A DNA stretch of 64,000 bases from Flavobacteriales bacterium (GTDB lineage Bacteria > Bacteroidota > Bacteroidia > Flavobacteriales_D > Crocinitomicaceae), in NCBI GenBank assembly GCA_947447525.1, contig CANFJL010000009.1, positions 62,001 through 126,000 on the forward strand, in the 5' to 3' direction. Shown piece by piece: positions 38,100-62,044 of the stretch. The notes under the pieces are model-generated. The model made no database searches. It was not told the DNA's origin and was given only the letters and a program-made list of their open reading frames with translations. Within the stretch, counting starts at the first letter, position 1; every line of letters starts with the position of its first letter. A program made the position numbers and the translations under genes.

Positions 38100-39503
38100 A
38101 TGAGTGCTTACGATGTAATTATTATTGGTTCTGGTCCTGGCGGTTATGTTGCTGCATTGAGATGCGCACAATTAGGAATGAAAACAGCCCTAATTGAAAA
38201 GTACGATACTTTGGGAGGAACTTGTTTAAATGTTGGATGTATTCCTTCAAAAGCATTGTTAGATTCTTCAGAGCATTTCCATAATGCTGCACATACCTTT
38301 ACTCAGCATGGTATTGAATTGACCAATTTAAAAGCCAACATCACACAGATGATTCAACGAAAAAATGATGTGGTAAGTCAAACTTGTGCTGGAGTGAAAT
38401 TCTTAATGGATAAAAATAAAATCGAAGTTCATTATGGATTAGGTTCTTTCATCGATAAAAACACGGTTTCTGTTAAAGCTTCCGATGGAACAAGCACTTC
38501 ATTATCAGGAAAAAATATTATTATCGCTACAGGTTCTAAACCAAATTTCTTTCCAGGAATGGAGCCAGATAAAAAGCGCATCATTACCTCAACAGAAGCA
38601 TTAAATCTAAAGGAAATTCCAAAAAAGATGCTCGTGATTGGTGGGGGAGTAATAGGCTTGGAATTAGGTTCAGTTTATAAAAGATTGGGAACTGAAGTGG
38701 AAGTAATTGAGAATTCAGCCACCTTGTTGCCTTCCATGGATGGAACTATTGGTAAAGAATTTTTAAAGATTTTGAAGAAGGATGGTTTCAAATTTCAAAT
38801 GGAACATCGAGTACAAAAGGTAGTTAATAAAGGAAAGTCTGTTGTGATGACGGCCTTGAATAAAAAGGGTGAAGAAGTAACTTTCGAAGCCGATTATTGT
38901 CTTGTTGCAGTTGGTCGAAAAGCATTCACTACAGGTTTAGGTCTCGAAAATATAGGACTTACCACCAATAATCGAGGTCAAGTTGAAGTAAATGATCACC
39001 TTCAAACATCCGTTCCTCATATTTATGCCATAGGAGATGTTGTTCGTGGACTCATGCTAGCGCATAAAGCGGAAGAAGAAGGTGTTTTTGTTGCTGAGGT
39101 AATTGCAGGACAAAAACCACATTTAAATTATAATTTAATTCCAGGTGTTATTTATACTTGGCCAGAAGTGGCGGCTGTAGGAAAAACTGAAGAAGAATTA
39201 ATCGCTGCTCAAATCGAATATAAAGTAGGAAGTTTTCCCATAAAAGCTTTGGGTCGTGCTAGAGCAAGTATGGATACTGCAGGAATTATTAAGATAATTG
39301 CTGATAAAAATACGGATGAGGTTTTGGGTGTTCATATGATTGCACCGCGTGCAGCTGATTTAATTATGGAAGCGGTTGTTGCAATGGAGTATCGCGCCTC
39401 GGCAGAGGACATTGCTCGTATTTGTCATCCACACCCAACTTATTCTGAAGCCATTAAAGAAGCTGCTTTAGCTGCAACAGAGAATAGGGCTTTGCACATC
39501 TAA
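38100..39503 (+). CDS. lpdA: dihydrolipoyl dehydrogenase (E3)
   Basis: 467 residues, full length. FAD motif 'VIIIGSGPGGYVAALRCAQLG', redox disulfide 'GGTCLNVGCIPSKALL' (Cys near 43 and 48), NAD motif 'LVIGGGVIGLELGSVYKRLG', and C-terminal catalytic 'HPHPTYSEA'. It reoxidises lipoamide in pyruvate and 2-oxoglutarate dehydrogenase complexes and the glycine cleavage system. It is transcribed alone, away from its E1/E2 partners. It converges with aroE one base from its stop. Confidence 0.98.
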   Translation: MSAYDVIIIGSGPGGYVAALRCAQLGMKTALIEKYDTLGGTCLNVGCIPSKALLDSSEHFHNAAHTFTQHGIELTNLKANITQMIQRKNDVVSQTCAGVKFLMDKNKIEVHYGLGSFIDKNTVSVKASDGTSTSLSGKNIIIATGSKPNFFPGMEPDKKRIITSTEALNLKEIPKKMLVIGGGVIGLELGSVYKRLGTEVEVIENSATLLPSMDGTIGKEFLKILKKDGFKFQMEHRVQKVVNKGKSVVMTALNKKGEEVTFEADYCLVAVGRKAFTTGLGLENIGLTTNNRGQVEVNDHLQTSVPHIYAIGDVVRGLMLAHKAEEEGVFVAEVIAGQKPHLNYNLIPGVIYTWPEVAAVGKTEEELIAAQIEYKVGSFPIKALGRARASMDTAGIIKIIADKNTDEVLGVHMIAPRAADLIMEAVVAMEYRASAEDIARICHPHPTYSEAIKEAALAATENRALHI

Positions 39504-39504
39504 T

Positions 39505-40233
39505 TTATTGATTCCAGTATACCCAACTTTTTAGGGCTTGTTCTTGAAGCATGCTCTTTCCGTTCATGATCGTAGCGCCTTGTTGTTCCGACTCTTGTAA
39601 TAATTTTGTTTTCTCAGGATTGTAAATCAAATCAATTACCAAATGATCAGCTCCAATAGCCGAAAAGGGAATGGGTAGTATTTCATCGGTATTGGGAAAT
39701 GATCCAACGGGGGTGCAATTTATGATTAATTTGCAGGCATGAATCATGTTGTCATTGACTTCTTCGTAGCTGTAGTGCTTTGATTCACCATTAGAATTGC
39801 GACTCACATTAAGCACATCAATTCCAATATTTTTAAGCACATAGGCAATTGCTTTTGAAGCTCCACCTGTTCCGAAAATCAGCGCTCGTTCATGGTGATT
39901 GCATAGAAATGGCTTGATGCTCTGTTGAAATCCAAAAGCATCAGAATTGTAGCCAATTTTTTGCCCATCCTTAAATACAATCGTATTCACCGCACCTATT
40001 GCTTTTGCAATGGGATCCAGAGCATCTAAATAGGGAATAACAAGTTCTTTGTAGGGGATGGTAACATTCAACCCGGATGGATTTTGTGCAAATACTGAAA
40101 GAATTCCTTCGATAGATTCTAGTTCAAAATTTTGATAAGAGGCTTCAATAGCTTCTTTTTCAAAGTAACTTTTAAAAAATTCAGAAGAAAAGGAATGCGA
40201 TAGGGTTTTGCCTATTAGTCCGTAGTTTTTCAT
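39505..40233 (-). CDS. aroE: shikimate dehydrogenase
   Basis: 242 residues, on the short side but complete. Substrate motifs 'GKTLSHSFSSEFF' and 'LNVTIPYKE' (catalytic Lys) are present, with 'GAVNTIVFKDGQKIGYNSDAFG' (catalytic Asp) and the NADPH motif 'ALIFGTGGASKAIAYVLK'. It reduces 3-dehydroshikimate in the aromatic pathway. It is third in a minus-strand run with the M15 peptidase and a small exported protein; the gap to the peptidase gene is 14 bases. Confidence 0.95.
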   Translation of the reverse strand: MKNYGLIGKTLSHSFSSEFFKSYFEKEAIEASYQNFELESIEGILSVFAQNPSGLNVTIPYKELVIPYLDALDPIAKAIGAVNTIVFKDGQKIGYNSDAFGFQQSIKPFLCNHHERALIFGTGGASKAIAYVLKNIGIDVLNVSRNSNGESKHYSYEEVNDNMIHACKLIINCTPVGSFPNTDEILPIPFSAIGADHLVIDLIYNPEKTKLLQESEQQGATIMNGKSMLQEQALKSWVYWNQ

Positions 40234-40247
40234 TTTTTGCTTTGAAA

Positions 40248-40985
40248 TTATAATAATTCCGGTCGATATTCGAAATGCATGGTATCAAAATGCAGCCATT
40301 TACCTCCCCAAATAAAACCGTGTTGCTCAAATATATCTACAATACCTTGAGGAATTTTGTTTTGATACTTTGGTTTTATTTTTTCATCGGTACAGCCACA
40401 AGACCATTGCCAGTAGTTAGAATAAGATGTATTCAAATCAATGGTAATTCCAAAAGAGTGATTGCTTAATCTTTTCGTTCCGTTGATATAGCGCCAATTA
40501 AATGTCCCCCCAATATTAGACAAGTACTTTTTCCACTCTGGATGCTTATCAAGTTCCTCAGAAACTGCTTTTAAAGCCAGGTGAGCATTATTTACTTTGC
40601 TGAACTGAAGTGTTTGATTCACTAATTTCGGACACCATACCACCTGAACTAAGTTTTTGACTACTGCTTCTTTACTCGAACCGTACATTTTTTTAAAAAA
40701 TGATTCATTTCTTATTCTGCCAGCATCGTTCAGCTGATTTTCATTAATGGTTCCTTTTGCATAGATATAATAAAATTGATCCTCTATATCAGGATTTTCA
40801 AGAAGTGCAGTAGTGCCTTTTACTATTGCGTCATCATAGAGGAGTTTACTGCCATCTTTAAAAAAAACATAATTGTCCTTAATATGGTCAATAGTTAATG
40901 GATAAGCCTGAACTAATTTGTCAGTGGATTTTTTTTCAGGAAGGATTGTGAGAGAAACTAAGACTAATAAAAAAACAGTTTTCAT
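40248..40985 (-). CDS. M15 family D-alanyl-D-alanine carboxypeptidase-like peptidase
   Basis: 245 residues with a short N-terminal signal segment (VFLLVLVSLTILP). The zinc site motifs are 'LSNHSFGITIDLN' (SxHxxGxAxD-type, with Ile for Ala) and 'WLHFDTMHFEYRPE' (HxxxxHFE). M15 enzymes cut D-Ala or L-Ala/D-Glu bonds in peptidoglycan. The first 120 residues, before the peptidase core, are not recognised. Located in the periplasm. It is 6 bases after the small exported protein and upstream of aroE. Confidence 0.85.
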   Translation of the reverse strand: MKTVFLLVLVSLTILPEKKSTDKLVQAYPLTIDHIKDNYVFFKDGSKLLYDDAIVKGTTALLENPDIEDQFYYIYAKGTINENQLNDAGRIRNESFFKKMYGSSKEAVVKNLVQVVWCPKLVNQTLQFSKVNNAHLALKAVSEELDKHPEWKKYLSNIGGTFNWRYINGTKRLSNHSFGITIDLNTSYSNYWQWSCGCTDEKIKPKYQNKIPQGIVDIFEQHGFIWGGKWLHFDTMHFEYRPELL

Positions 40986-40991
40986 TAATTA

Positions 40992-41426
40992 TTAATATTT
41001 TGCTGCCTCGGTTAAAATAGCTCTTGGAACATTCGGATAGCGATCCGTAAGTCCAGCACACCAGACATCATTAGGAAATGTTGCTCCTTCTAGTATGTGC
41101 CATTTACCATTGGTTTTTTGAAATAAAGCACCACAATAACAGCAATTATCTACATCTTCTAAGAACAGAGTCATGTCCATTTCTTTACCATCTTTTCTTT
41201 GCGCTGTTGCTTCAAAAAAGGCGTAGTCATTCATGACCTTAAAATGGTTCACAACAAAAACAACATCTTGTTTGACATGATGATACACTCTTTCACGCAT
41301 TAAATCTAACATTTGCGTTCTTTCAGCACTATTTGCGGAGGATTTTGTTTTAAAATCACGCATACTTTGTGCTATCCCTATATTGGATAAGGTGATTAAT
41401 AATAGGAGTAGAAGTAATTTTTTCAT
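40992..41426 (-). CDS. small exported protein, unknown function
   Basis: 144 residues, signal peptide MKKLLLLLLLITLSNIGIAQS. The mature part has a helix-like start ('SAERTQMLDLMRERVYHHVKQ') and a beta part with a 'CCYCGALFQ' cluster and 'NDVWCAGLTDRYP', four Cys in all. It could be an NTF2/SnoaL-like fold ('FVVNHFKVMNDYAFFEATAQRKDGK', 'KTNGKWHILEG'). It is probably first in the run with the M15 peptidase and aroE. Confidence 0.65.
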   Translation of the reverse strand: MKKLLLLLLLITLSNIGIAQSMRDFKTKSSANSAERTQMLDLMRERVYHHVKQDVVFVVNHFKVMNDYAFFEATAQRKDGKEMDMTLFLEDVDNCCYCGALFQKTNGKWHILEGATFPNDVWCAGLTDRYPNVPRAILTEAAKY

Positions 41427-41500
41427 TGTATTTATTTAGTAAAATATTTCGAATAAAGATACTAATTACTTTCTAGATTAATTTATATCACCCAATCTTT

Positions 41501-41508
41501 TAACTTTG
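41501..41508 (+). promoter_or_regulatory. -7 box directly before rsgA (TAACTTTG)
   Basis: TAACTTTG, then TATT, then the ATG of rsgA. The N4 spacing predicts a leaderless mRNA. The family N-terminus confirms the start codon. Confidence 0.6.
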
Positions 41509-41512
41509 TATT

Positions 41513-42451
41513 ATGGAGCAGGGTTTGGTATTGAAGTCGACAGGTAAATGGTATACACTTGAATTATCAACAGGTAAAATCGTTCAGGCGCGTATACGCG
41601 GAAAATTAAGATTGGAGGGACTTTCAACCACCAACCCAATTGCTGCAGGGGATAAAGTTTATCTTTTACCAGAGCTTGATGATGATGGTACGCGTTTAAT
41701 TGACAATATTGTTGCGCGTAAAAATTATATTGTCCGAAAGTCCACGAATCTAAGTAAGCAAATGCAGATTTTAGCGGCAAATATTGATCATGCCTATCTC
41801 GTTGTCACCTTAAAATCTCCGGTCACACAAATTGCTTTCATAGATCGTTTTTTAGTTTCGGCAGAATCTTTTAGAATTCCGACTACCATATTATTTAACA
41901 AAATCGATCTTTATGGTGAAGAGGAAAAAGGACTCTTGTCCGTTTTGACCTCTATATATACTGCTATCGGTTATGGAGTGGCTGCCATCAGTACTTTGGA
42001 TAAAACGAGCACCAATTTTCTTTTGAAGGAAATAGAGGGCAATAATGTAATGATTTCAGGTAATTCGGGTGTAGGTAAGTCCTCTTTAGTAAATGCTTTG
42101 GATCCTAATTTGGACCTCAGGACAGGGGAAATCTCGCGAGCGCATGAGCAAGGTAAACACACGACAACCTTTGCCGAAATGCATCATTTAACATCAGGAG
42201 GATATATTATTGACACTCCGGGAATACGAGCATTTGGTGTGATTAATTTAGAGAAAGAGCATATTGCGCACTATTTTCCAGAAATGAGAGCGCTTTTGGG
42301 TAAATGTCGTTTTCACAATTGCATGCATTTGAACGAACCTCATTGTGCCGTAAAATTGGCACTTGCCGAAGAAAAAATAGCTCCCTCTCGCTACCACAGT
42401 TATGTTCAACTCATGGAGGACGATGGAAGTTCCCCGTATCGTTATGGGTAG
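41513..42451 (+). CDS. rsgA: ribosome small-subunit-dependent GTPase A
   Basis: 312 residues. An OB domain ('GLVLKSTGKWYTLEL...ARIRGKLRLEG') is followed by a circularly permuted GTPase: 'ILFNKIDLYGEE' first, then the P-loop 'SGNSGVGKSSLVNALD', then 'IDTPGIRAFGV'. A C-terminal zinc module (CRFHNCMHLNEPHC) closes it. It checks late 30S maturation. The stop codon TAG (42449-42451) touches the first base of repeat copy A1, which starts the accessory region. Confidence 0.96.
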   Translation: MEQGLVLKSTGKWYTLELSTGKIVQARIRGKLRLEGLSTTNPIAAGDKVYLLPELDDDGTRLIDNIVARKNYIVRKSTNLSKQMQILAANIDHAYLVVTLKSPVTQIAFIDRFLVSAESFRIPTTILFNKIDLYGEEEKGLLSVLTSIYTAIGYGVAAISTLDKTSTNFLLKEIEGNNVMISGNSGVGKSSLVNALDPNLDLRTGEISRAHEQGKHTTTFAEMHHLTSGGYIIDTPGIRAFGVINLEKEHIAHYFPEMRALLGKCRFHNCMHLNEPHCAVKLALAEEKIAPSRYHSYVQLMEDDGSSPYRYG

Positions 42452-42508
42452 ATTAAAAAGAGTGAGAAGGAGCCCCAAAGAATCGGGACAAGATGTGAAA
42501 GCGAAGAA
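42451..42508 (+). repeat. 58-bp direct repeat, copy A1
   Basis: Bases 42451-42508 are identical to 44274-44331. The unit starts GATTAAAAAGAGTGAGAAGG and ends AAGCGAAGAA. The two copies are in the same orientation, about 1.8 kb apart, with the hipBA genes between them. Confidence 0.95.
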
Positions 42509-42525
42509 TAATAAAGTAAACAATC

Positions 42526-42572
42526 ATCGCTCTCGTTTTTAGAAAAAAGTTTCTACCGTAATCTGATTAAAA
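42526..42572 (+). repeat. about 48-bp direct repeat, copy B1
   Basis: It matches 44233-44281 with three substitutions and a 2-base gap. It starts ATCGCTCTCG, contains TTTTTAGAAAAAAGTTT, and ends TGATTAAAA. B1 and B2 directly flank the hipBA genes. Confidence 0.92.
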
Positions 42573-42612
42573 CAGTGCTGACAATCATCGCGCTGACTTT
42601 TGTGGTACCTTC

Positions 42613-43833
42613 TTACTTTTTTAAGTTCCCTAGCAATTTTTTTTCAATGAGTTCACGCTCTTTTTTATTGATTTGCGTTTCAGAAGAGAAGATGTTCCAT
42701 TTAGACAGCGTTTCTTTTACTTGATCAATGATTTCATTGCCTTTGTTGATGCCAAAGTAAGCGGCCAATTTCAATAGATCTTTTTTTCCAATTTCTTGAT
42801 AAGTATTTGCAACCGAAAGACTATGATATCCTCCCGGAGAAGGTGAAAAGGTTAAGTCGAATGCGGGTGCTAAACCCCATTTTCCATTTTCATTCATCAA
42901 AAAAGCAATGTTTTTACTATGGTCATCCATATTGGAAGCATAAACATTGTAAACAGCCAAACGAAATACTTTTTCGCAAGCGTTTAAATTATTTTCCAAT
43001 CTGTTTGCAGCATCCATTACATGGCCATAATCCATGGTGCTATATCGGAAATCGTCATGTAATAATCCACATGCAGAATGCAGATGCAATCGATGATTGC
43101 CAATATGATCAAAACGCTTCGTTCCGAAGAATACTTTTCCGCTTTCAGAATAAAACAAGTTAGACTCACTCATTTCGATTCCACAAGCAAGCGCCATTTT
43201 GTAATAGGAGTACTCAATACGTGCGATATCTTTTAAATCGTTTAATGCGGGAAATTTTATAATCCAAGGTTCAAATTCTTCTTTAGAAACAGTGGAGAAT
43301 TGATTCAATTTTTGATTGTAATTCACCAGTATTTTCGGTCGAGCGCCAACTGAATTTCCACCAAGATGGTACAATTGATCCAAAAATCTGGCATTACCAG
43401 TTTGTAATAATGCTTCTGATTCTTGAGCAATTAAGTCTAAATTGATGCGTTCATTTTCAAATTTCCCTTCATCGGTAACGGGTTCGTAAATCAATGCGCC
43501 TTGAGCACTTTTACCTAGCATAGAAAGACGATCCAAAACACTTAATTCTTTTGGGTTTTTTCCACTTTCAATTAATTTGCGATCCAAGAGAAATCTTCCC
43601 CATCCATCGGGAATTGAATCGTTGAATACCCCAAATAGGCCATCAAAAGGCACTTTCGGCGAAAGAAGTATTTCAGTTGTTTTCTTTAATTTAAAGGGAG
43701 AAATATCCAAATCTCTTTCCAAAAAGGAAGGTTCAAATCGAAAATATATCTGCTGATTTTGCTCAACAAGTATGCCCACTTCAACGATTGACGATCCAAA
43801 ATCCAATGATACTTTAATTCTTTCTTGGCTCAT
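42613..43833 (-). CDS. hipA: HipA-family Ser/Thr kinase toxin
   Basis: 406 residues, close to the family norm. The N-terminal HipA domain shows 'DGLFGVFNDSIPDGWGRFLL' (63-82). Kinase landmarks: the glycine/phosphoserine loop 'GGNSVGARPK' (158-167, with Ser161 at the place of the autophosphorylated Ser), catalytic 'NMDDHSKN' (301-308), and metal-binding Asp326 in 'AFDLT'. All are intact, so it should be active. HipA of E. coli phosphorylates glutamyl-tRNA synthetase; this homologue's target is unknown. It lies 6 bases after hipB, and the pair is bracketed by direct repeats. Confidence 0.93.
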   Translation of the reverse strand: MSQERIKVSLDFGSSIVEVGILVEQNQQIYFRFEPSFLERDLDISPFKLKKTTEILLSPKVPFDGLFGVFNDSIPDGWGRFLLDRKLIESGKNPKELSVLDRLSMLGKSAQGALIYEPVTDEGKFENERINLDLIAQESEALLQTGNARFLDQLYHLGGNSVGARPKILVNYNQKLNQFSTVSKEEFEPWIIKFPALNDLKDIARIEYSYYKMALACGIEMSESNLFYSESGKVFFGTKRFDHIGNHRLHLHSACGLLHDDFRYSTMDYGHVMDAANRLENNLNACEKVFRLAVYNVYASNMDDHSKNIAFLMNENGKWGLAPAFDLTFSPSPGGYHSLSVANTYQEIGKKDLLKLAAYFGINKGNEIIDQVKETLSKWNIFSSETQINKKERELIEKKLLGNLKK

Positions 43834-43839
43834 TCTAAT

Positions 43840-44112
43840 CTACTTAAATAATTTTTCAAGATCCTTGTTTTTGTTGGACTGAAAAACTGTTTCAAAATCA
43901 TTCAATTTCCTAAGGATAAAAGCAATTTTTAATAATGAATCCAATGAAATATGACCACTCGATTCAAATCGTTTGTAGCTACCAAGAGAGACATTGGCTC
44001 GTTGAGCAAGTTCGCTCTGGGACATTTTATGTTCTTTTCGAAGAGCTCTTGTCCGTTGAGCAAGTTCCTTCAGTATGTCTGTTGGATTTTTATCAATGGA
44101 AAAAGGATTCAT
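43840..44112 (-). CDS. hipB: HipB-like XRE-family antitoxin
   Basis: 90 residues. The helix-turn-helix covers about 15-70: 'LAQRTRALRKEHKMSQSELA', 'RANVSLGSYKRFESSGHISL'. It should neutralise HipA and repress its own promoter. An AT-rich region with a -7 box and a perfect 16-bp palindrome lies directly upstream. The order antitoxin then toxin is classical. Confidence 0.9.
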   Translation of the reverse strand: MNPFSIDKNPTDILKELAQRTRALRKEHKMSQSELAQRANVSLGSYKRFESSGHISLDSLLKIAFILRKLNDFETVFQSNKNKDLEKLFK

Positions 44113-44131
44113 AAGTAGATATTATAATAGC

Positions 44132-44139
44132 CAAATATA
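44132..44139 (-). promoter_or_regulatory. -7 box for hipBA (TATATTTG)
   Basis: Plus-strand CAAATATA is TATATTTG on the minus strand, 19 bases before the hipB start. Confidence 0.5.
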
Positions 44140-44157
44140 CTATATAATGATATAAAT

Positions 44158-44173
44158 AGCTAATATATTAGCT
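44158..44173. promoter_or_regulatory. 16-bp perfect palindrome, candidate HipB operator
   Basis: AGCTAATATATTAGCT is fully self-complementary. It is centred about 30 bases upstream of the hipBA -7 box, near the expected -33 region. Autoregulation by HipB is known for the family; the link to this site is inferred. Confidence 0.4.
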
Positions 44174-44232
44174 TTATTTTCTCTGTGAAGTTAAAAATAC
44201 TTATATATTATTCGTTCACTTCCTTAACATTA

Positions 44233-44281
44233 ATCGCTCTCGGATTTTTAGAAAAAAGTTTATACCGTAGTATGATTAAAA
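44233..44281 (+). repeat. about 48-bp direct repeat, copy B2
   Basis: It is near-identical to 42526-42572 and overlaps the first 8 bases of A2 (GATTAAAA). Copy order is A1-B1-hipAB-B2-A2, all in one orientation. Confidence 0.92.
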
Positions 44282-44331
44282 AGAGTGAGAAGGAGCCCCA
44301 AAGAATCGGGACAAGATGTGAAAGCGAAGAA
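44274..44331 (+). repeat. 58-bp direct repeat, copy A2
   Basis: Identical to 42451-42508. Confidence 0.95.
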
Positions 44332-44357
44332 AAAAAGCGGAGAATACCGCTCTCTTA

Positions 44358-44451
44358 CTGTTTTTCACTCTTCAATAAAACAATCCTGACATTTATCGTC
44401 AGGGCTGTTTTTCACTCTTCATTAAAACAATCCTGACATTTATCGTCAGGG
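44358..44451. repeat. two tandem 47-bp repeats, each with a hairpin and T-rich flanks
   Basis: Copies 44358-44404 and 44405-44451 differ at one base (CTTCAATAAAA against CTTCATTAAAA). A third copy starts and decays at 44452 (CTGTTTCTCACTC). Each carries CCTGAC-ATTTATC-GTCAGG. T-runs follow in both directions, so each could act as a bidirectional terminator, for example for read-through from the tRNA genes. Confidence 0.85.
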
Positions 44452-44611
44452 CTGTTTCTCACTCTGACTTTTGTGATCCGCTCCGCCGCTGCGGAGGAGT
44501 GCAGATCCTATAATAAAGGCTCATGCCAAGCATAGAACCCCAACTGCTTTGCAGTTGTTGGATTTTTCCTTTTAAATTGCTTTTCAAAATAAATTTTAAT
44601 CGCTTTAAAAG

Positions 44612-44640
44612 GAAAAACCCAGCACTTTCGTGCCGGGTTC
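44612..44640 (-). terminator. terminator of tRNA-Arg
   Basis: On the minus strand, 7 bases after the tRNA-Arg 3' end, comes the hairpin AACCCGGCAC-GAAA-GTGCTGGGTT (one mismatch), followed by TTTCC and then TTTT. Confidence 0.8.
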
Positions 44641-44646
44641 TTTTTG

Positions 44647-44720
<74 letters not shown>

Positions 44721-44743
44721 TAATGATACATTTCAATTTTTTA

Positions 44744-44783
44744 GTTGCTCTATCCTCCCTAACCATCGGGAGCGCTAGCGGAC
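44744..44783 (-). pseudogene. remnant of a tRNA-Arg 5' half
   Basis: GTTGCTCTATCC (44744-44755) and GCTAGCGGAC (44774-44783) match bases 44692-44703 and 44710-44719 of the intact tRNA-Arg exactly. The six bases between them in the gene are replaced by 18 bases that form CTCCC-TAACCATC-GGGAG. The anticodon arm and 3' half are missing, so it cannot be functional. Confidence 0.75.
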
Positions 44784-44800
44784 TAAAAAACAAAATAATC

Positions 44801-44829
44801 AAAAAAGGGGGATGAATTTCATCCCCCTT
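44801..44829 (-). terminator. terminator of tRNA-Pro
   Basis: Arms AAGGGGGATG and CATCCCCCTT around five bases. Read on the minus strand it follows the tRNA-Pro 3' end directly and is succeeded by six T. Confidence 0.88.
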
Positions 44830-44830
44830 G

Positions 44831-44905
44831 TCGGGGCGGCAGGATTCGAACCTGCGACCTCCTGGTCCCAAACCAGGCGCGATGACCGGACTACGCTACG
44901 CCCCG
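44831..44905 (-). tRNA. tRNA-Pro (anticodon TGG)
   Basis: A 75-nt cloverleaf. Acceptor CGGGGCG pairs with CGCCCCG; anticodon stem CCTGG/CCAGG with loop TTTGGGA; T arm GCAGGTTCGAATCCTGC. Discriminator A. It reads CCN codons with wobble. Confidence 0.97.
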
Positions 44906-45138
44906 ATTAAGCATCTTTTTTATTCTTTTTTGGACTTGATCGTTTTCAAACCCTTTAATAATCCTGCTTCAGTAATTCTAGCTTTGCTCTGAGTTCTCAT
45001 CTCGGCATCACATCTCACCTTAACCTTAATTGCGGTGGGAGCGAGATTACATCGGCTATGCCTCTGTGCTCTCCGCTTTGCTCCGGGTCGAACTCTGAGT
45101 TCTCATCTCGGCATCACATCTCACCTTAACCTTAATTG
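44906..45138. other. spacer between tRNA-Pro and tRNA-Ser built of repeats
   Basis: No gene. It carries the first and most of the second 62-bp repeat copy (44987-45048 and 45093-45154). The 44 bases between the copies are GC-richer than the rest (ATCGGCTATGCC, CTCCGCTTTGCTCCGGG). The repeats include 16 bases of the tRNA-Ser 3' end. Confidence 0.75.
44987..45048. repeat. 62-bp direct repeat, copy 1 (tRNA-Ser 3'-end duplicate)
   Basis: Identical to 45093-45154. It starts CTCTGAGTTCTCATCTCGGC and ends GTGGGAGCGAGATT. The last 16 bases equal the 3' end of tRNA-Ser, including the discriminator and acceptor strand. Confidence 0.95.

Positions 45139-45154
<16 letters not shown>
45093..45154. repeat. 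62-bp direct repeat, copy 2 (runs into tRNA-Ser)
   Basis: Identical to 44987-45048. This copy continues into the intact tRNA-Ser gene, so it is the source or the surviving junction. Confidence 0.95.
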
Positions 45155-45225
<71 letters not shown>

Positions 45226-45244
45226 ATCCGCGGTTAACGGAGGG

Positions 45245-45252
45245 CAAAAATA
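45245..45252 (-). promoter_or_regulatory. -7 box for tRNA-Ser (TATTTTTG)
   Basis: Plus-strand CAAAAATA is TATTTTTG on the minus strand, 19 bases before the mature tRNA-Ser 5' end. Confidence 0.5.
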
Positions 45253-45293
45253 ATACTTTCTTTTCTTTTTTAAGAATATTTCTTCAAAAAAAA

Positions 45294-46466
45294 TCAATTC
45301 TGGTAAACAAATGTTCCTTTTTCACTGTTAATGGTAACTTGTTCCCCTTGATGCTTCTCTACCCGACCTATTATTTTTGCATCTATGTTAAAGCTTTTGG
45401 AAATTGCAATGATTTCATTTGCAATATCTTGAGGGACATATAGCTCCATTCGGTGTCCCATGTTAAATACTTTATACATTTCTTTCCAAGGCGTATTTGA
45501 TTGTGCTTGTATAAGTTCAAATAGTGGCGGAATGTCAAACATATTGTCTTTGATAATATGCACATCTTCCACAAAATGAAGCACTTTTGTTTGAGCACCT
45601 CCTGAACAATGAACCATTCCATGGATTTCTTTTCGGTGTTCATCCAATATTTTCTTAATCACAGGAGCATAAGTACGCGTAGGAGATAAGACCAATTTCC
45701 CAGCATCAAGTGGACTATTCATTACCTTATCAGTCAATTCCATATGACCGCTGTAAACGAGTTCCGTTGGTATTGCTACATCAAAACTTTCAGGATACTT
45801 ATGGGCAAGTGTTTTGCTAAAAACATCGTGTCTTGCGCTGGTTAAGCCATTACTCCCCATGCCGCCATTGTATTCTGTTTCATAACTTGCTTGTCCGAAA
45901 GAAGATAATCCTACAATAACATCTCCATCTTGAATCGTATGGTTGGAAATCACATCTTTACGCTTCATTCTGCAAACAACAGTGGAATCAACAATTATAG
46001 TTCTAACTAAATCTCCCACATCAGCAGTTTCTCCACCTGTTGAATAAATATCAATGCCATAAGACCGCAGTTCATCTAAAAGTTCTTCCGTACCATTAAT
46101 GATAGTTGAAAGCACCTCTCCTGTAATTAAATTCTTATTACGGCCTATGGTTGAAGAAACTAGAATTGGTCCTGTAGCACCAACACAAAGTAAATCATCA
46201 ATATTCATGATTAAAGCATCTTGTGCTATCCCTTTCCAAACAGAAAGATCGCCTGTTTCTTTCCAATACATATAAGCCAATGCTGACTTGGTACCAGCAC
46301 CATCCGCATGCATGATCACACAATAGTTGTCATCAGCACCCAGATAATCGGGAACTATTTTGCAAAATGCCTTGGGAAATAAGCCTTTGTCTATGTTTTT
46401 TATCGCTTGATGAACATCTTCCTTTCCAGCAGAAACTCCTCTTGATTGATAACGATTGTCTGACAT
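45294..46466 (-). CDS. purM: phosphoribosylformylglycinamidine cyclo-ligase
   Basis: 390 residues, the longer form seen in Bacteroidota. It closes the imidazole ring in purine synthesis (FGAM to AIR, using ATP). Family segments: 'VIMHADGAGTKSALAYMYWK', 'DALIMNIDDLLCVGATGPIL', 'YSTGGETADVGDLVRTI', 'VGLSSFGQASYE' and 'GLTSARHDV'. It has its own promoter box in the 36-base gap after xseB, so it can be transcribed independently. Confidence 0.95.
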   Translation of the reverse strand: MSDNRYQSRGVSAGKEDVHQAIKNIDKGLFPKAFCKIVPDYLGADDNYCVIMHADGAGTKSALAYMYWKETGDLSVWKGIAQDALIMNIDDLLCVGATGPILVSSTIGRNKNLITGEVLSTIINGTEELLDELRSYGIDIYSTGGETADVGDLVRTIIVDSTVVCRMKRKDVISNHTIQDGDVIVGLSSFGQASYETEYNGGMGSNGLTSARHDVFSKTLAHKYPESFDVAIPTELVYSGHMELTDKVMNSPLDAGKLVLSPTRTYAPVIKKILDEHRKEIHGMVHCSGGAQTKVLHFVEDVHIIKDNMFDIPPLFELIQAQSNTPWKEMYKVFNMGHRMELYVPQDIANEIIAISKSFNIDAKIIGRVEKHQGEQVTINSEKGTFVYQN

Positions 46467-46484
46467 GTGATTTCAATTAAGCCA

Positions 46485-46492
46485 CAAAGGTA
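46485..46492 (-). promoter_or_regulatory. -7 box for purM (TACCTTTG)
   Basis: Plus-strand CAAAGGTA is TACCTTTG on the minus strand, 18 bases before the purM start. Confidence 0.6.
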
Positions 46493-46502
46493 GAAAAAAG
46501 AC

Positions 46503-46712
46503 TTAGTCTTCTTCGTTAGTATCTGCTAGCTCTGAAAGAATTTTTTGAACATCTAATTCCGTTGATTTAAGTTTTGCTTTGCAAATACTGATTAATTCAG
46601 CTGCACGATTCACTTTAAGGGCCAATTCATCTATTCCAATATTTCCAGTCTCCATTTCAGATACAATGCGCTGAAGCTCTTCAAATGATTGCGCGTAGTT
46701 TTCTACTTTCAT
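46503..46712 (-). CDS. xseB: exodeoxyribonuclease VII small subunit
   Basis: 69 residues, the expected size. The family pattern 'SFEELQRIVSEMETGNIGIDE' is followed by a heptad helix 'AAELISICKAKLKSTELDVQK' and an acidic tail. XseB subunits wrap the XseA catalytic subunit. No xseA is in the window. It lies 26 bases after the M1 aminopeptidase stop. Confidence 0.9.
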   Translation of the reverse strand: MKVENYAQSFEELQRIVSEMETGNIGIDELALKVNRAAELISICKAKLKSTELDVQKILSELADTNEED

Positions 46713-46738
46713 AGTATAAAATTAATGTTTTAATGGAA

Positions 46739-48322
46739 TTACCGCATGACAGTTTCAAACAAAAGCTCAGTGTTAGGGTCGTAGAGGATGTCTTTTATCT
46801 TTTGTTCATAGGTCCTTTCAAATATAAATGCTCTTGAATTAATTTGCAAACGCTCTAATTTTTCACTGCCGTCTTCTAATCGAACCAAAATCGAAAGTGT
46901 AATCTCAAAAGGAACACCGCCTTGCTCTTGCGATACTTTAATTTGAACTGTATTTTTATTTTTATTCTCTTGTATCGCTAATACGGGAACTTTTGGATTG
47001 TAAAGCCATTGCTTGAAAAAAGTAGTCCATTCAATAGTAGGGTTTTCGGCCTGAATTACCGAAATAAAATCTTGTGTAGAGGCATTGCTGAGACGATACT
47101 TTAAGTAGTAGGCGCGTATACTTTTCAAAAATGCCTCTTCCCCAAGTTTTTTAGATAACATATGTAATATCCATCCGCCTCTTTGATAGGAATTGGTATT
47201 TAACAAATCCATAAGTAACGCATAACTGGTGTCAACAACAGGATGAGTGTATATTTTATTGAATCTAATGATTGCTTTCCTATCTTTATCTAATGCACTT
47301 TTGAAAGAAGTTTCCCCTTTGGTTTTAAGGATATAATAATTGGTGAAATAGGTAGCAAAACCTTCACTTAACCATAGGTCGCACCAATTTTTCTCACTTG
47401 CAGAATTTCCAAACCATTGATGCACCATTTCATGTGCAATCAAATTTTCACATGATTTAGTTCCTGTAATAGAGGTTTCATTATAAAAAATACAACCAGC
47501 GTTTTCCATTCCCCCAAATTCTGTAGTAGATTGAACATTAGCCATTTGTTCATATTCATAAGCACCAAACAAATTTTGGTAGAAAAGTAGTATGTCAGGA
47601 GCAAGGGAGAAATCAGTAAATCCATCTTCCTTATTTTTGGGGTAAACCCAGGCGCTCACAGGAATTGCACTTGGATAGTTCTTAATATCCATTTGAGCAA
47701 TTCCAATAACCATCACTTTGGTTGGTATTGGGGTTTTGGAAGAATAGTAATGCGTCCTCATTTCTTTTTCTTCGGTTTCTTTGATTTGCTTCCCATTGGC
47801 AATTACTTGATATTTAGACGGTGCATGTACCGTAAAATCTACCAGTGCTTTATCCGTCGGGTGATCGTTACAGGCAATCCATCGCTGCGCTCTATTAGGC
47901 CAATTGTCACCAAAAAATACGCGATCACCATATTTATTTTTACCTATGATCAATCCGCTGCTTGGAATTCCTTGATATTGAATTTCAACTGTAATGGGAA
48001 TTTGATGCGACTTATTATACATTGAAGTATGATAAATGTATAAGGAATCATTTTGTTGTTTAAAAGCACAGGACTTACCTTCAACAAGCAATTTGGTAAC
48101 TTCCATTCCCTTCCCATTTTGATTTTTTTGTTCCAGGTTAAAAACAATGGGGTCAGCAACATCATTCAGATTGAAATTGATTTTTTCTTCAACATAAATT
48201 AGGTCATTTAGATCTGAAACACGAATATCGATGTTATATTTCTGCACATCAATTTGACTTATTTGCCCAATAAAAATAAAAGGGAAGGCTCCATAAATGA
48301 ATAATAAAAGGATATTTTTCAT
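46739..48322 (-). CDS. M1 family metallo-aminopeptidase, exported
   Basis: 527 residues, signal peptide (LLLFIYGAFPFIFIGQ). The exopeptidase motif is 'FGGMENAGCIFYNE' (GxMEN) and the zinc site 'ENLIAHEMVHQWFGN' with the downstream Glu in 'DLWLSEGFATYF', near residue 297-325. The enzyme removes N-terminal residues from peptides in the periplasm or outside. It is shorter than ERAP-type M1 peptidases, with no C-terminal ARM-like domain, but has a short C-terminal beta module. Confidence 0.92.
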   Translation of the reverse strand: MKNILLLFIYGAFPFIFIGQISQIDVQKYNIDIRVSDLNDLIYVEEKINFNLNDVADPIVFNLEQKNQNGKGMEVTKLLVEGKSCAFKQQNDSLYIYHTSMYNKSHQIPITVEIQYQGIPSSGLIIGKNKYGDRVFFGDNWPNRAQRWIACNDHPTDKALVDFTVHAPSKYQVIANGKQIKETEEKEMRTHYYSSKTPIPTKVMVIGIAQMDIKNYPSAIPVSAWVYPKNKEDGFTDFSLAPDILLFYQNLFGAYEYEQMANVQSTTEFGGMENAGCIFYNETSITGTKSCENLIAHEMVHQWFGNSASEKNWCDLWLSEGFATYFTNYYILKTKGETSFKSALDKDRKAIIRFNKIYTHPVVDTSYALLMDLLNTNSYQRGGWILHMLSKKLGEEAFLKSIRAYYLKYRLSNASTQDFISVIQAENPTIEWTTFFKQWLYNPKVPVLAIQENKNKNTVQIKVSQEQGGVPFEITLSILVRLEDGSEKLERLQINSRAFIFERTYEQKIKDILYDPNTELLFETVMR

Positions 48323-48415
48323 GACTCTAAATTAAGAAAAAAAGAAGCTTACTTCATTTCATCACGAAAAAAAGGGTGTTACTTAAATTTTTAAGGCCAA
48401 CAAATATTTTATAAT

Positions 48416-48423
48416 TATCTTTG
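48416..48423 (+). promoter_or_regulatory. -7 box for the MMPL exporter (TATCTTTG)
   Basis: TATCTTTG, 20 bases before the ATG at 48444. Confidence 0.55.
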
Positions 48424-48443
48424 TAGCTTATACATTCAAAAAT

Positions 48444-51089
48444 ATGTGGAATAGAATTGCCAGTATTATATTAAGAAACCGCTTCATTATTCTTGGGATT
48501 CTTACCCTACTTACTGTATTGTTTGGTTATTTTTCCATGACAGGTCTTAAAATCGATAACAAATATGGCAACATGCTGCCAAAAGATACGGAGACACAAC
48601 AAACTTATTTAAAATTTAAAGAAAGGTTTGGTGAAGATGGATCTACTCTTGTAATAGCAATTAAGGATAAAGATCTTTTTACACAAAAAAAATTCATTAA
48701 ATGGAAAGCATTAGGAGATAGTATCTTAAAAATGGACGGAGTTACCGCTGTGGTCTCAGAAGCAAAGCTGCTTACCTTAAAAAATGATACGGTCAATCAA
48801 ACCTTTATTCCTCAAGTAATTTTTTCTGACCCCACTTTTCATGAGAAAAGCATTCAGAAAATCAAAAAGGAAATCAGGAATAATCCATTATATAATAACT
48901 TACTTTATAATGATGCTACTCATGTGAGTCTAATGTTAGTATCCATTGATGAAAAATTTCTAGTAGATAGAAAAAAACAAGAGGTAGTCATCAACATTGA
49001 AAATTTAGCGCGAGAATACGAAAAAACTTTCGGGAAAATTCATTTTGCAGGTTTACCTCACATGAGAGTCCTTATTGGAAAAAAGGTCCTCAGTGAAATG
49101 TACATATTTGTTGCCTTGTCTATTTTAGTCTCGGCCTTTTTTATGTATTTCCTCTTTAGATCAGTACGCGTTACTTTAATAAGTTTGGTTGTGGTTATGG
49201 TTACTGTAATCTGGGCGATGGGTACCATTGGAATAATGGGGTATAATGTTTCCTTAATGATGGCTTTAATTCCACCATTGATGATTGTAATTGGAATACC
49301 AAATTGTATTTATCTCTACAATAAGTTCCACTACGAATACCGACAACACAATAACAAAGCAAAAGCATTAAGTCGTGTAATTCGTAAAACAGGAACTGCA
49401 ATGTGGCTTACCAATGTCACGACTGCTCTTGGTTTCATGACATTTTTGTTTACCAACTCAGAAAAGTTCTTTGAATTTGGGGTGATATCGTCAGTGAATA
49501 TTATGCTTTGTTATGTAGTGTCACTTTGTTTGGTTCCTATCTTGATTTCATTTTCAAAAAATCCACCTGAACGTCATTTAAAACATTTAGATCGCAAAGC
49601 TGCAGTTGGCTTATTGAACCGTCTTGTTACACTTACAGCTAATTATCGCCCGGCAATTTATATTGTCACTATTGCCCTTACATTATTCAGTGGTATTGGA
49701 GTTATTTTTATGAAGGTAACAGGAAATATAACAGGTGATTTACCAAATAATGACCCTATTAAATTAGACATCCAATTCATGGAACGGAATTTTGGTGGGG
49801 CTGTTCCTTTTGAGGTAATGATTGACTATAAGGAAAAAGGTCGATTGTTCGATAACAGCACCCTTGAAAAAGTCGAAAGTGTTCAAGAAATGATTCAAAA
49901 GGACACTCTTTTTGCTAAAAGTATTTCATTGGTAGACTTTGTGAAAGTGATTAATATGTCCTATTACAATAACAATCCAGAGCGCTACACCACCATTCAG
50001 AATCGAGATAGATTGCGCATGAAAAAGTATGTGGATAATTTCAATTCAAGTCTAAACAATTCCTCTTTTTCCATTAAGGAGTTGGTTGACACCACGGATC
50101 ATATTTTACGCATAAGAACTCAAATGCGTGACATAGGTTCGTATGAAGTTACGGATGAGGTAGCGATGGTTAAAACTAGAATTGACAGTATTATGAATCC
50201 TGATAAAAAGTCAATTGAATTACTTTATGCATCAGCAGCAAAAGGGAAAAAGACTTATTACGACTCTTTGCTATTCGGATATTCCAGTATTTACAATAAT
50301 GCAACTGCCTTATTGTCCAATGGCAATGATGACCTGCAATATCGTTTTGATTCAGATCCTGAATTGATAAAATCATATTATAAGAAGAAGAATTTCTTAT
50401 CAGTCTTGCGCAAATCGATTGATAAAGAATACTATGACATTCAATTGACGGGAACTGCTGTAGTTGCCTCAGAGGGAACAAAATATTTATTGAATAATCT
50501 ATTACAAAGTATTGGATTTGCGGTATTGTCTATCGCAGCCTTAATGTCCATTTTATTCTATTCTTTCAGAATGGTAGTAGTTTCCATGATTCCTAATTTA
50601 ATTCCGATGGTGATCACTGCTGGAATTATGGGCTGGTTTGGCATTCCATTAAAGCCATCTACCTTATTGATTTTCTCCATTGCTTTAGGAATTACGGTAG
50701 ACAACACCATACATTTCTTGGCGCATTATCGCCATGAGTTAAAAATGAAAAAGTGGGACCTTAAAGAATGTGTTGCGATTTCAATTCGTGAAACAGGATT
50801 GAGTATCATCTATACTTCAGTGATTTTGTTCTTCGGATTTATTGTTTTTGTATTCTCTGATTTTGGTGGAACTCAAGCTTTAGGTTACTTATCTGCCATC
50901 ACCTATTTTGTTGCACTCTTCACCAACTTAATCTTGCTTCCAAGTTTGTTATTGAGTTACGAAAGAAGGCTTACAACGAAGTCTTTTGAAGAACCGATGT
51001 TTGTCATTTATGATGAAGAGGATGATATCAACTGGAATCTTTTAGAAGTAGATACAGAAGAACCAAAAAAGGATCAGACTGAAGCTTAG
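48444..51089 (+). CDS. MMPL/RND-family exporter
   Basis: 881 residues in two homologous halves, each with one membrane helix, a large periplasmic domain and five further helices (first cluster about 215-385, second about 690-850). Charged intramembrane residues lie in 'GITVDNTIHFLAHYRHELK', which fits proton coupling. The organisation is that of hydrophobe-exporting MMPL or HpnN-like proteins and not of tripartite drug pumps; no membrane-fusion protein or TolC gene is adjacent. Likely substrates are lipids or hydrophobic molecules; this is inference. Confidence 0.88.
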   Translation: MWNRIASIILRNRFIILGILTLLTVLFGYFSMTGLKIDNKYGNMLPKDTETQQTYLKFKERFGEDGSTLVIAIKDKDLFTQKKFIKWKALGDSILKMDGVTAVVSEAKLLTLKNDTVNQTFIPQVIFSDPTFHEKSIQKIKKEIRNNPLYNNLLYNDATHVSLMLVSIDEKFLVDRKKQEVVINIENLAREYEKTFGKIHFAGLPHMRVLIGKKVLSEMYIFVALSILVSAFFMYFLFRSVRVTLISLVVVMVTVIWAMGTIGIMGYNVSLMMALIPPLMIVIGIPNCIYLYNKFHYEYRQHNNKAKALSRVIRKTGTAMWLTNVTTALGFMTFLFTNSEKFFEFGVISSVNIMLCYVVSLCLVPILISFSKNPPERHLKHLDRKAAVGLLNRLVTLTANYRPAIYIVTIALTLFSGIGVIFMKVTGNITGDLPNNDPIKLDIQFMERNFGGAVPFEVMIDYKEKGRLFDNSTLEKVESVQEMIQKDTLFAKSISLVDFVKVINMSYYNNNPERYTTIQNRDRLRMKKYVDNFNSSLNNSSFSIKELVDTTDHILRIRTQMRDIGSYEVTDEVAMVKTRIDSIMNPDKKSIELLYASAAKGKKTYYDSLLFGYSSIYNNATALLSNGNDDLQYRFDSDPELIKSYYKKKNFLSVLRKSIDKEYYDIQLTGTAVVASEGTKYLLNNLLQSIGFAVLSIAALMSILFYSFRMVVVSMIPNLIPMVITAGIMGWFGIPLKPSTLLIFSIALGITVDNTIHFLAHYRHELKMKKWDLKECVAISIRETGLSIIYTSVILFFGFIVFVFSDFGGTQALGYLSAITYFVALFTNLILLPSLLLSYERRLTTKSFEEPMFVIYDEEDDINWNLLEVDTEEPKKDQTEA

Positions 51090-61363: not shown

Positions 61364-62044
61364 ATGAAGATCTTGGTAATTGAGGACGAGTTGGAATTGA
61401 ATAAAACATTGGTCAAATACTTGACGAATGAAGGATATATTGTAGAATCTGTAGAGGATTTTGATAAGGCTATCTTTAAAGTTGTTGACCATTCTTACGA
61501 TTGTATTTTAGTTGACATCACCCTTCCCAAAGGAAACGGTCTTGATATCATAAAGCAATTAAAGGTAGATCGTTCAAAGGCAGGTATAATAATTATTTCA
61601 GCAAAAAATTCTGACGATGATATAATTTTAGGATTGGATCTAGGAGCCGATGACTATTTAGCGAAACCGTTTAATTTGGCCGAATTGAATTCAAGAATAA
61701 AGGCCTTATTTCGAAGAAAACATTTTGACGGGGATCATGAGATCATATTTAATGAATTGACCGTTAAACCGGAAGAACGTATTGTCAATGTGAATGAACA
61801 ACCGGTTATTCTAACTGGAAAGGAATTTGATCTGTTGTTATTCTTTTTGATTAACAAAAATAGGGTGGTTTCTAAAATAACCATTGCTGAACACTTATGG
61901 GGGGATGAAAATGATCATTTATTCAATCATGATTTCATTTATGTTCATTTACGCAATTTGAGAAAAAAACTGAACGAGAAAGGATGTCAGGATTATATTC
62001 AAACGATTTATGGAATTGGTTACAAATTCAATACAAGTCTATGA
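61364..62044 (+). CDS. OmpR/PhoB-family response regulator
   Basis: 226 residues. Receiver: acidic pocket Glu7-Asp8, phospho-acceptor Asp51 ('CILVDITLPKGNG'), Lys101 in 'LAKPF'. The winged-helix DNA-binding domain (about 128-224) ends 'HLRNLRKKLNEKG' and 'IQTIYGIGYKF'. It overlaps the kinase start (ATGA), so the two are translated together. It probably controls its own operon and the DUF2490 protein downstream. Confidence 0.96.
   Translation: MKILVIEDELELNKTLVKYLTNEGYIVESVEDFDKAIFKVVDHSYDCILVDITLPKGNGLDIIKQLKVDRSKAGIIIISAKNSDDDIILGLDLGADDYLAKPFNLAELNSRIKALFRRKHFDGDHEIIFNELTVKPEERIVNVNEQPVILTGKEFDLLLFFLINKNRVVSKITIAEHLWGDENDHLFNHDFIYVHLRNLRKKLNEKGCQDYIQTIYGIGYKFNTSL

Follow-up and report, generated by a model that had tools for sequence, protein, structure and literature searches.

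How a toxin-antitoxin (TA) operon comes to occupy the same chromosomal site in several species is the question raised by a hipBA pair in a Flavobacteriales bacterium of the Crocinitomicaceae (assembly GCA_947447525.1, 2.66 Mb, here G000). The pair lies in a window of 64,000 nucleotides (positions 62,001 to 126,000 of contig CANFJL010000009.1, contig 9), with hipB at 43840-44112 and hipA at 42613-43833, both on the minus strand, and it is enclosed by two nested direct repeats, A and B, between rsgA and a tRNA cluster. The hip genes have been exchanged between related species, they share a site beside tRNA-Arg, and sequence resembling the tRNA-hip spacer is repeated on both sides of them. We favor, with slightly better than even confidence, a reading in which hipBA is a cassette lodged in an array of tRNA-Arg flank repeats, probably by RecA recombination via tRNA and flank homology. 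The repeats differ from species to species and, although they make up no transposon, they may be the handles by which the cassette is traded.

Exchange of the hip genes between related species

Synonymous divergence of the hip genes between related species is far below that of their neighbors. Between G000 and locus L101 (genome G018), fourfold-site identity is 135/158 in hip and 33/122 in purM (p 6e-24), purM being the sole neighbor measured there; between G000 and L102 (G092) it is 108/155 in hip against 38/97 in rsgA (p 2e-6), 43/128 in purM (p 1.5e-9), and 19/61 in aroE, and comparisons with L104 (G062) and L112 (G006) give the same pattern. Expressed as synonymous divergence (dS), hip stands at 0.18-0.47 between G000 and L101, L102, L104, L112, L105 (G014), and L235 (G071; hipB only), while dS for purM, rsgA, aroE, lpd, and the gene at 40248 runs from 1.5 to beyond measurement. 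(We take aroE, lpd, mmpL, and purM to be the appropriate names for the respective Pfam hits, and dtd to be that of a gene likened to it by eye.) Because synonymous sites were counted and hip is saturated against the distant hip of G020 (L113), protein constraint cannot account for the low hip divergence. Contamination is an unlikely source, as hip in L102 and L104 is in the middle of its contig and has host-type genes to either side.

The edges of the exchanged segment lie close to the genes. The block of high identity between G000 and L101 (92% DNA identity by BLASTN; 42588-44239, minus strand) consists of the leader, hipB, hipA, and 25 bp past the hipA stop codon, and it ends ~126 bp before hipB. 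With its length of ~1.65 kb, its near edges, and its low dS, hip thus bears out the proposal of the initial annotation that this is a mobile cassette with no nearby integrase, and no transposase or integrase family was found by Pfam among the 13 open reading frames (ORFs) at 38,100-51,086. Between L101 and L102 the similar block also spans the spacer between tRNA-Arg and hipB at 86-93%, save for ~108 bp extra in L101. Among themselves, L102, L104, and L112 are close in rsgA (dS 0.20-0.28) and distant in purM (dS 0.66-1.5), which points to exchanges of longer segments that broke off near the tRNA cluster; hip divergence is lower still between L102 and L112, with fourfold-site identities of 178/180 in hip and 100/124 in rsgA.

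By its gene content this is an ordinary HipBA type II TA operon whose setting is unusual and informative; the toxin and antitoxin functions are predicted from sequence. The 406-amino-acid product of hipA is a putative HipA-family kinase-like toxin (Pfam HipA_C, 6e-45, and Couple_hipA, 5e-9, both above the gathering score), related to PDB entries 7vkb and 8ezr, HipT(Lp), although the nearest solved chains are distant by sequence (E 3e-8). Directly upstream, with a gap of 6 bp and in one operon, hipB codes for a predicted helix-turn-helix (HTH) antitoxin of 90 amino acids (Pfam HTH_3, 2e-8), whose match to the NCBIfam Y4mF-family antitoxin TIGR03070 is below the cut-off; PADLOC gave nothing for hipA and one weak HTH model for hipB. 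A perfect palindrome in the leader, AGCTAATATATTAGCT (44158-44173), is probably the HipB operator, and the leader core AATATATTAGCTAT within 44113-44173 is nearly invariant in 10 hip leaders, down to alleles of ~50% protein identity.

A common site beside tRNA-Arg

A search for HipA relatives at E<=1e-60 in 86 genomes of the genus identified nine carriers (G000, G018, G092, G062, G006, G014, G020, G034, and G089), and in six of these hip is directly downstream of tRNA-Arg(tct): G000, L101, L102, L104, L112, and G020, the last with a HipA of 51% identity. The gene order purM, tRNA-Ser, tRNA-Pro, tRNA-Arg, hipB, hipA recurs in L101, L102, L104, and L113; purM and the three tRNA genes are on the hip contig in five of the six, the L112 contig beginning just before tRNA-Arg, hipB, and hipA. 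In the window these are tRNA-Arg(tct) at 44646-44720, tRNA-Pro(tgg) at 44830-44905, tRNA-Ser(gct) at 45138-45225, and the AIR synthase related gene that we call purM at 45294-46466 (Pfam AIRS and AIRS_C), a conserved neighbor of the tRNA cluster, all on the minus strand. Of the Rfam matches in 41500-45500 with E<=1, the three tRNAs alone reach the gathering score.

The left neighbor, convergent with hip, is rsgA (41513-42451, plus strand), coding for the ribosome small-subunit GTPase (Pfam RsgA_GTPase; TIGR00157 above cut-off). We considered rsgA as an anchor of the site and rejected it, since a dtd-like gene directly follows rsgA in most of 29 relatives' loci (by eye); hip goes with the tRNA/purM side. 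The spacer between hipA and rsgA is a variable slot, with no gene in G000; by eye, L102 and L112 have a small ORF there, L104 an HTH-regulator-like ORF and a second ORF, and L101 perhaps an HTH ORF.

Among 22 further genomes fetched at purM, tRNA-Arg was found in 15, none of which has hipA at E<=1e-60, with several of these assemblies 81-90% complete and four contigs ending within 500 bp of tRNA-Arg. In the relative G021 (94% identity across 9 kb), which might have shown the empty site, the contig breaks off within rsgA; a further contig begins with flank repeats and runs on to a different gene. In the hip-less G023, a 150-bp unit follows tRNA-Arg and closes with a copy of the tRNA 3′ end; the same unit in G020 has hip after it, such that G023 comes closest to an empty site, though only with respect to the distant hip. 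No relative examined carries an A-B-A arrangement without hip, the empty site that an insertion of the kind first proposed would predict.

One relative has lost the toxin gene: at L235 (7379-7822), hipB is kept beside tRNA-Arg and hipA is reduced to a 27-nt remnant in which its two ends are joined, and the antitoxin has thus outlived the toxin there. In the same genome the purM-tRNA-hip segment is inverted with respect to the MMPL gene, and rsgA still has a dtd-like gene behind it.

Repeats on both sides of hip

The order A1-B1-hipA-hipB-B2-A2 with all copies in one orientation was read correctly at the outset. The first base of A1 (42451-42508) is the final one of the rsgA stop codon, and A1 is identical over 58 bp to A2 (44274-44331), or at 60 of 61 positions when extended; B1 (42519-42572) aligns with B2 (44226-44281) over 56 columns with five substitutions and one 2-base gap, all four copies being read on the plus strand. 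Two of the five substitutions fall within the first 14 bases of B2, which are hip leader and belong to the block common with L101, and outside these bases the three substitutions and 2-base gap described before agree with ours. The best same-strand match between the two hip flanks of G000 reaches a score of 117, and 500 dinucleotide shuffles gave at most 28. Smaller elements complete the array: an extra copy of the B edge, ACAATCATCGC, on the hipA side (42581-42591, plus strand), one of repeat family D5; a 12-bp repeat, CACAAAAGTCAG, at 42593-42604 (minus strand) with a second copy at 44464-44475 by a tRNA-Arg 3′-end copy, and thus in both outer hip flanks; what may be a short B-like stub beyond A2 (44337-44354); and two 47-bp tandem hairpin units (44358-44451, minus strand), a related 38-bp copy of which (89%) follows hipA in L101. 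Between these and the tRNA gene lie the 11-nt tRNA-Arg 3′-end copy, GAGCGGATCAC (44473-44483, minus strand), with a like layout in L102, L104, and L235, and what we term the flank element of tRNA-Arg (44500-44645, minus strand), a terminator-like hairpin plus a long inverted repeat that contains the core motif and has a predicted fold of -55.4 kcal/mol (z -7.6).

Are A and B general companions of hip? The search of the G000 genome for further copies, suggested with the original proposal, returned matches in a tandem array by tRNA-Lys on contig 1 and none elsewhere away from hip, and there are no matches at E<=0.001 in 59 other genomes; G062 and G092 are outside those 59, and in them A and B were looked for only in the hip-region loci. 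A and B as a dispersed mobile repeat is therefore rejected. The contig 1 array (L006, 4110-4460) is tandem with a period of 78-80 bp and has the B core beside tRNA-Lys(ttt); the core also occurs near tRNA-Lys in several copies in G021, G066, and G071 and once in G006. Allowing up to one mismatch, the short B core has 49 matches in 61 genomes against 22 for the reversed pattern (summed from a table), and a tRNA is present in 8 of 12 regions with the core that were fetched. At nine hip loci of relatives, A and B are absent save for one 13-bp match, so the finding that the initial annotation said would refute its proposal, relatives with hip but without these repeats, is largely what we see; a 15-nt B core follows hipA in L112 and, judged by eye, also in L102, with a similar stretch before hipB in G071. 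Other repeats flank hip on both sides in those relatives, however, and repeats as such do go with hip here.

Direct repeats across hip measure 20 bp in L101, 37 bp in L102, and 29 bp in L104, and in these as in G000 none of 500 shuffles does as well; the L104 copy after hipA starts with the tRNA-Arg 3′ end. We compared a library of six tRNA-hip spacers with the spacers after hipA and found same-strand matches after intact hipA in five of five cases, from E 1.3e-5 (L101) to 7e-29 (G000), and none after the deleted hipA of G071. The best match at 19 control loci is 8e-4. There were 20 controls at first, one of which, L012, proved to be the G006 hip locus itself and was dropped after its match had been seen; two of the 19 (L105 and L240, the latter from G089) carry hip elsewhere, and eight are downstream of tRNA-Arg without hip. 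As most of the 19 come from more distant species, we added 12 segments from the same genomes (100.7 kb), in which the best is one 17-bp match at 5e-5 and all others are at 0.012 or above. Flank-type sequence thus stands on both sides of hip in all five intact genomes of the close lineage, in differing letters, with L101 the weakest case.

These repeats are of a kind found at tRNA genes of the genus more widely, where the flanks carry tandem, strongly folding units that include tRNA ends. Copies of 16-nt tRNA ends (up to one mismatch, within 900 bp) accompany 4 of 31 tRNAs in G000 and, at the purM-tRNA loci of relatives, 13 of 67, with none in a reversed control; 3′-end copies account for 4/31 and 11/67. 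Of the flank-element core, ATGCTTGGNNTGAGY, the loci examined contain 14 distinct copies in nine arrays, all 14 within 1 kb of tRNA-Arg or tRNA-Lys and seven at 113-117 nt from the tRNA, where 25.5% of the bases in the loci lie within 1 kb of a tRNA (p 5e-9, a guide only, as tRNAs were part of the basis for choosing the loci and copies in one array depend on each other). The element folds strongly in L102 also (z -4.5), and between L102 and G071 it is 90.5% identical over 179 bp, with rsgA 70% and purM 81% identical. Flank repeats also occur at tRNAs without hip, and tandem units without genes carry tRNA ends too.

Other tRNA copies lie nearby. A perfect 62-bp direct repeat (44987-45048 and 45093-45154) includes the tRNA-Ser 3′ end, and tRNA-Ser 3′-end copies follow tRNA-Ser in L101, L102, L121, L163, L174, L178, L180, and L183. 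The segment 44742-44785 is a degraded tRNA-Arg 5′ part in which a small hairpin replaces the D arm, and by eye L104 has two tandem degraded copies of the tRNA-Arg 5′ part before the real tRNA-Arg.

Possible routes of entry and known systems

We envisage hipBA as a cassette of ~1.6 kb (leader with operator, hipB, and hipA) that passes from species to species within one Flavobacteriales genus and would lodge in a fast-rearranging array downstream of tRNA-Arg(tct), built of tandem, strongly folding units that reproduce terminators and tRNA ends; the direct repeats peculiar to each species, A and B in G000, would be pieces of such arrays. New or replacing copies would enter by RecA-type recombination via the conserved tRNA genes and the flank repeats, with imperfect junctions forming on short matches, B2 perhaps being one at which hip leader, CGATTAATGTT, was joined to B sequence, CGATGATTGTT. 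After entry the pair could be kept by addiction, and the A and B copies of G000 may have grown in number or been homogenized in their own lineage.

Several observations weigh against this proposal. No recombination event or excised circle was seen, and allele replacement within a resident hip gives an equal dS signal with no need of repeats. The hip flanks of G020 share no repeat (297 of 500 shuffles are as good), those of L112 match each other weakly (35/500), and because the downstream spacer of L112 equals that of L102 over 300 bp, the five bracketed genomes amount to four independent cases. The L101 match (38 bp) barely exceeds the best same-genome control, although the former comes from 300 bp and the latter from 100 kb, and the spacers are intergenic whereas the controls are mostly coding. 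In L105 (90% identity) hip is elsewhere, with no tRNA in the 5.7 kb upstream, and in L240 (62%) and L116 (G034, 64%) no tRNA is near hip in the available DNA, the G014 and G034 contigs ending inside hipA; tRNA repeats are therefore not needed for every move.

A resident hip whose alleles are swapped by homologous recombination inside the genes, with the repeats as unconnected tandem duplications of tRNA flanks, is the main alternative, possible but rather unlikely. It fits the divergence data equally well and accords with flank repeats at hip-less tRNAs and with the distant G020 hip at the same site; moreover, G000 and L101 are unalignable between tRNA-Arg and the shared block, such that insertion and swap look the same. 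It leaves unexplained the spacer-like repeats on the tRNA-distal side, present in 5/5 intact cases and 0/19 controls and rivaled by a single 17-bp match in the 100.7 kb of the same genomes, and it sits poorly with the 15 genomes in which the tRNA-Arg site was read and no hipA was found at the same threshold (several being incomplete). Site-specific integration at the tRNA by an integrase acting in trans, with tRNA 3′-end copies as att remnants, we regard as improbable. The tRNA-Arg 3′ end that begins the 29-bp L104 repeat after hipA would suit it, as would the G023 unit between tRNA-Arg and a 3′-end copy and the position of the G020 hip after such a copy; yet the 13 ORFs scanned in the 38-51 kb part of the window include no integrase family, the hip ends in G000 are not tRNA ends, the repeats differ per genome with none across the G020 hip, and the gene-less tandem units carry tRNA ends as well.

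The initial annotation had offered a further explanation, in which hip inserted into an A-B-A tandem and B1/B2 are a long target-site duplication made without an integrase. An older A-B tandem is plausible, as the array may be read as B stub, A, B, hip, B edge, B, A. An insertion duplicate should be the younger repeat, however, and B is more diverged than A (7/56 differing columns against 0/58, Fisher p 0.006; 5/42 against 0/58, p 0.011, without the hip-leader part), which would make B the older unless the A copies were homogenized. The inner edge of B2, AACATTAATCG, is part of the hip leader in L101, which has no B, so that B2 looks like a junction of hip leader and B on a short near-match. 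Hip occupies the site in relatives without A or a full B, and we found no inverted repeats of at least 20 nt bounding the cassette; we consider such an insertion very improbable. Returning to recombination through the flanks, we speculate, with considerable doubt, that tRNA 3′-flank repeats are portable homology arms for a class of cassettes that lack an integrase, hipBA among them; similar folding repeats, turning over fast beside the same tRNAs in each genome, would then form a constant landing pad. If true, this would be a general route for the spread of chromosomal TA systems.

The operon resembles HipBA type II operons generally in having hipB, an HTH gene, before hipA, in its Couple_hipA and HipA_C domains, and in its palindromic operator-like leader; it differs in its recent exchange at a tRNA-Arg site and in the flank repeats on both sides. 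The 178-bp repeats of the Escherichia coli tyrT operon (rtT RNA) follow a tRNA gene in tandem and duplicate its 3′ end, and units of this description are found here; unlike those of tyrT, they have long inverted repeats, are associated with several tRNAs across a genus, and stand on both sides of a TA operon. Direct repeats that include a tRNA end, as in L104 and G023, resemble those of integrative elements that target tRNA 3′ ends, although here no integrase was found and the repeats vary between genomes. In the literature lists that we screened by title and opening lines of the abstract, nothing hinted at the repeats or at a hip operon placed in this way, and we describe here a repeat family beside tRNA-Arg and tRNA-Lys. 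How chromosomal TA systems move and integrate is called unelucidated in section 16 of a 2020 review (PMC7167474); one TA operon traded at one tRNA site, with lineage-specific repeats on both sides and, for a distant version, the hip-free G023 for comparison, makes that question testable. The same review describes E. coli ccdO157, a chromosomal TA system at the fixed folA-apaH site, where REP sequences are found too (PMC7167474), and the two cases are alike, as far as that account goes, in placing a TA system at a fixed site also used by repeats. At the hip locus, by contrast, exchange is measured against neighboring genes, and the repeats lie on both sides of the TA operon in several species.

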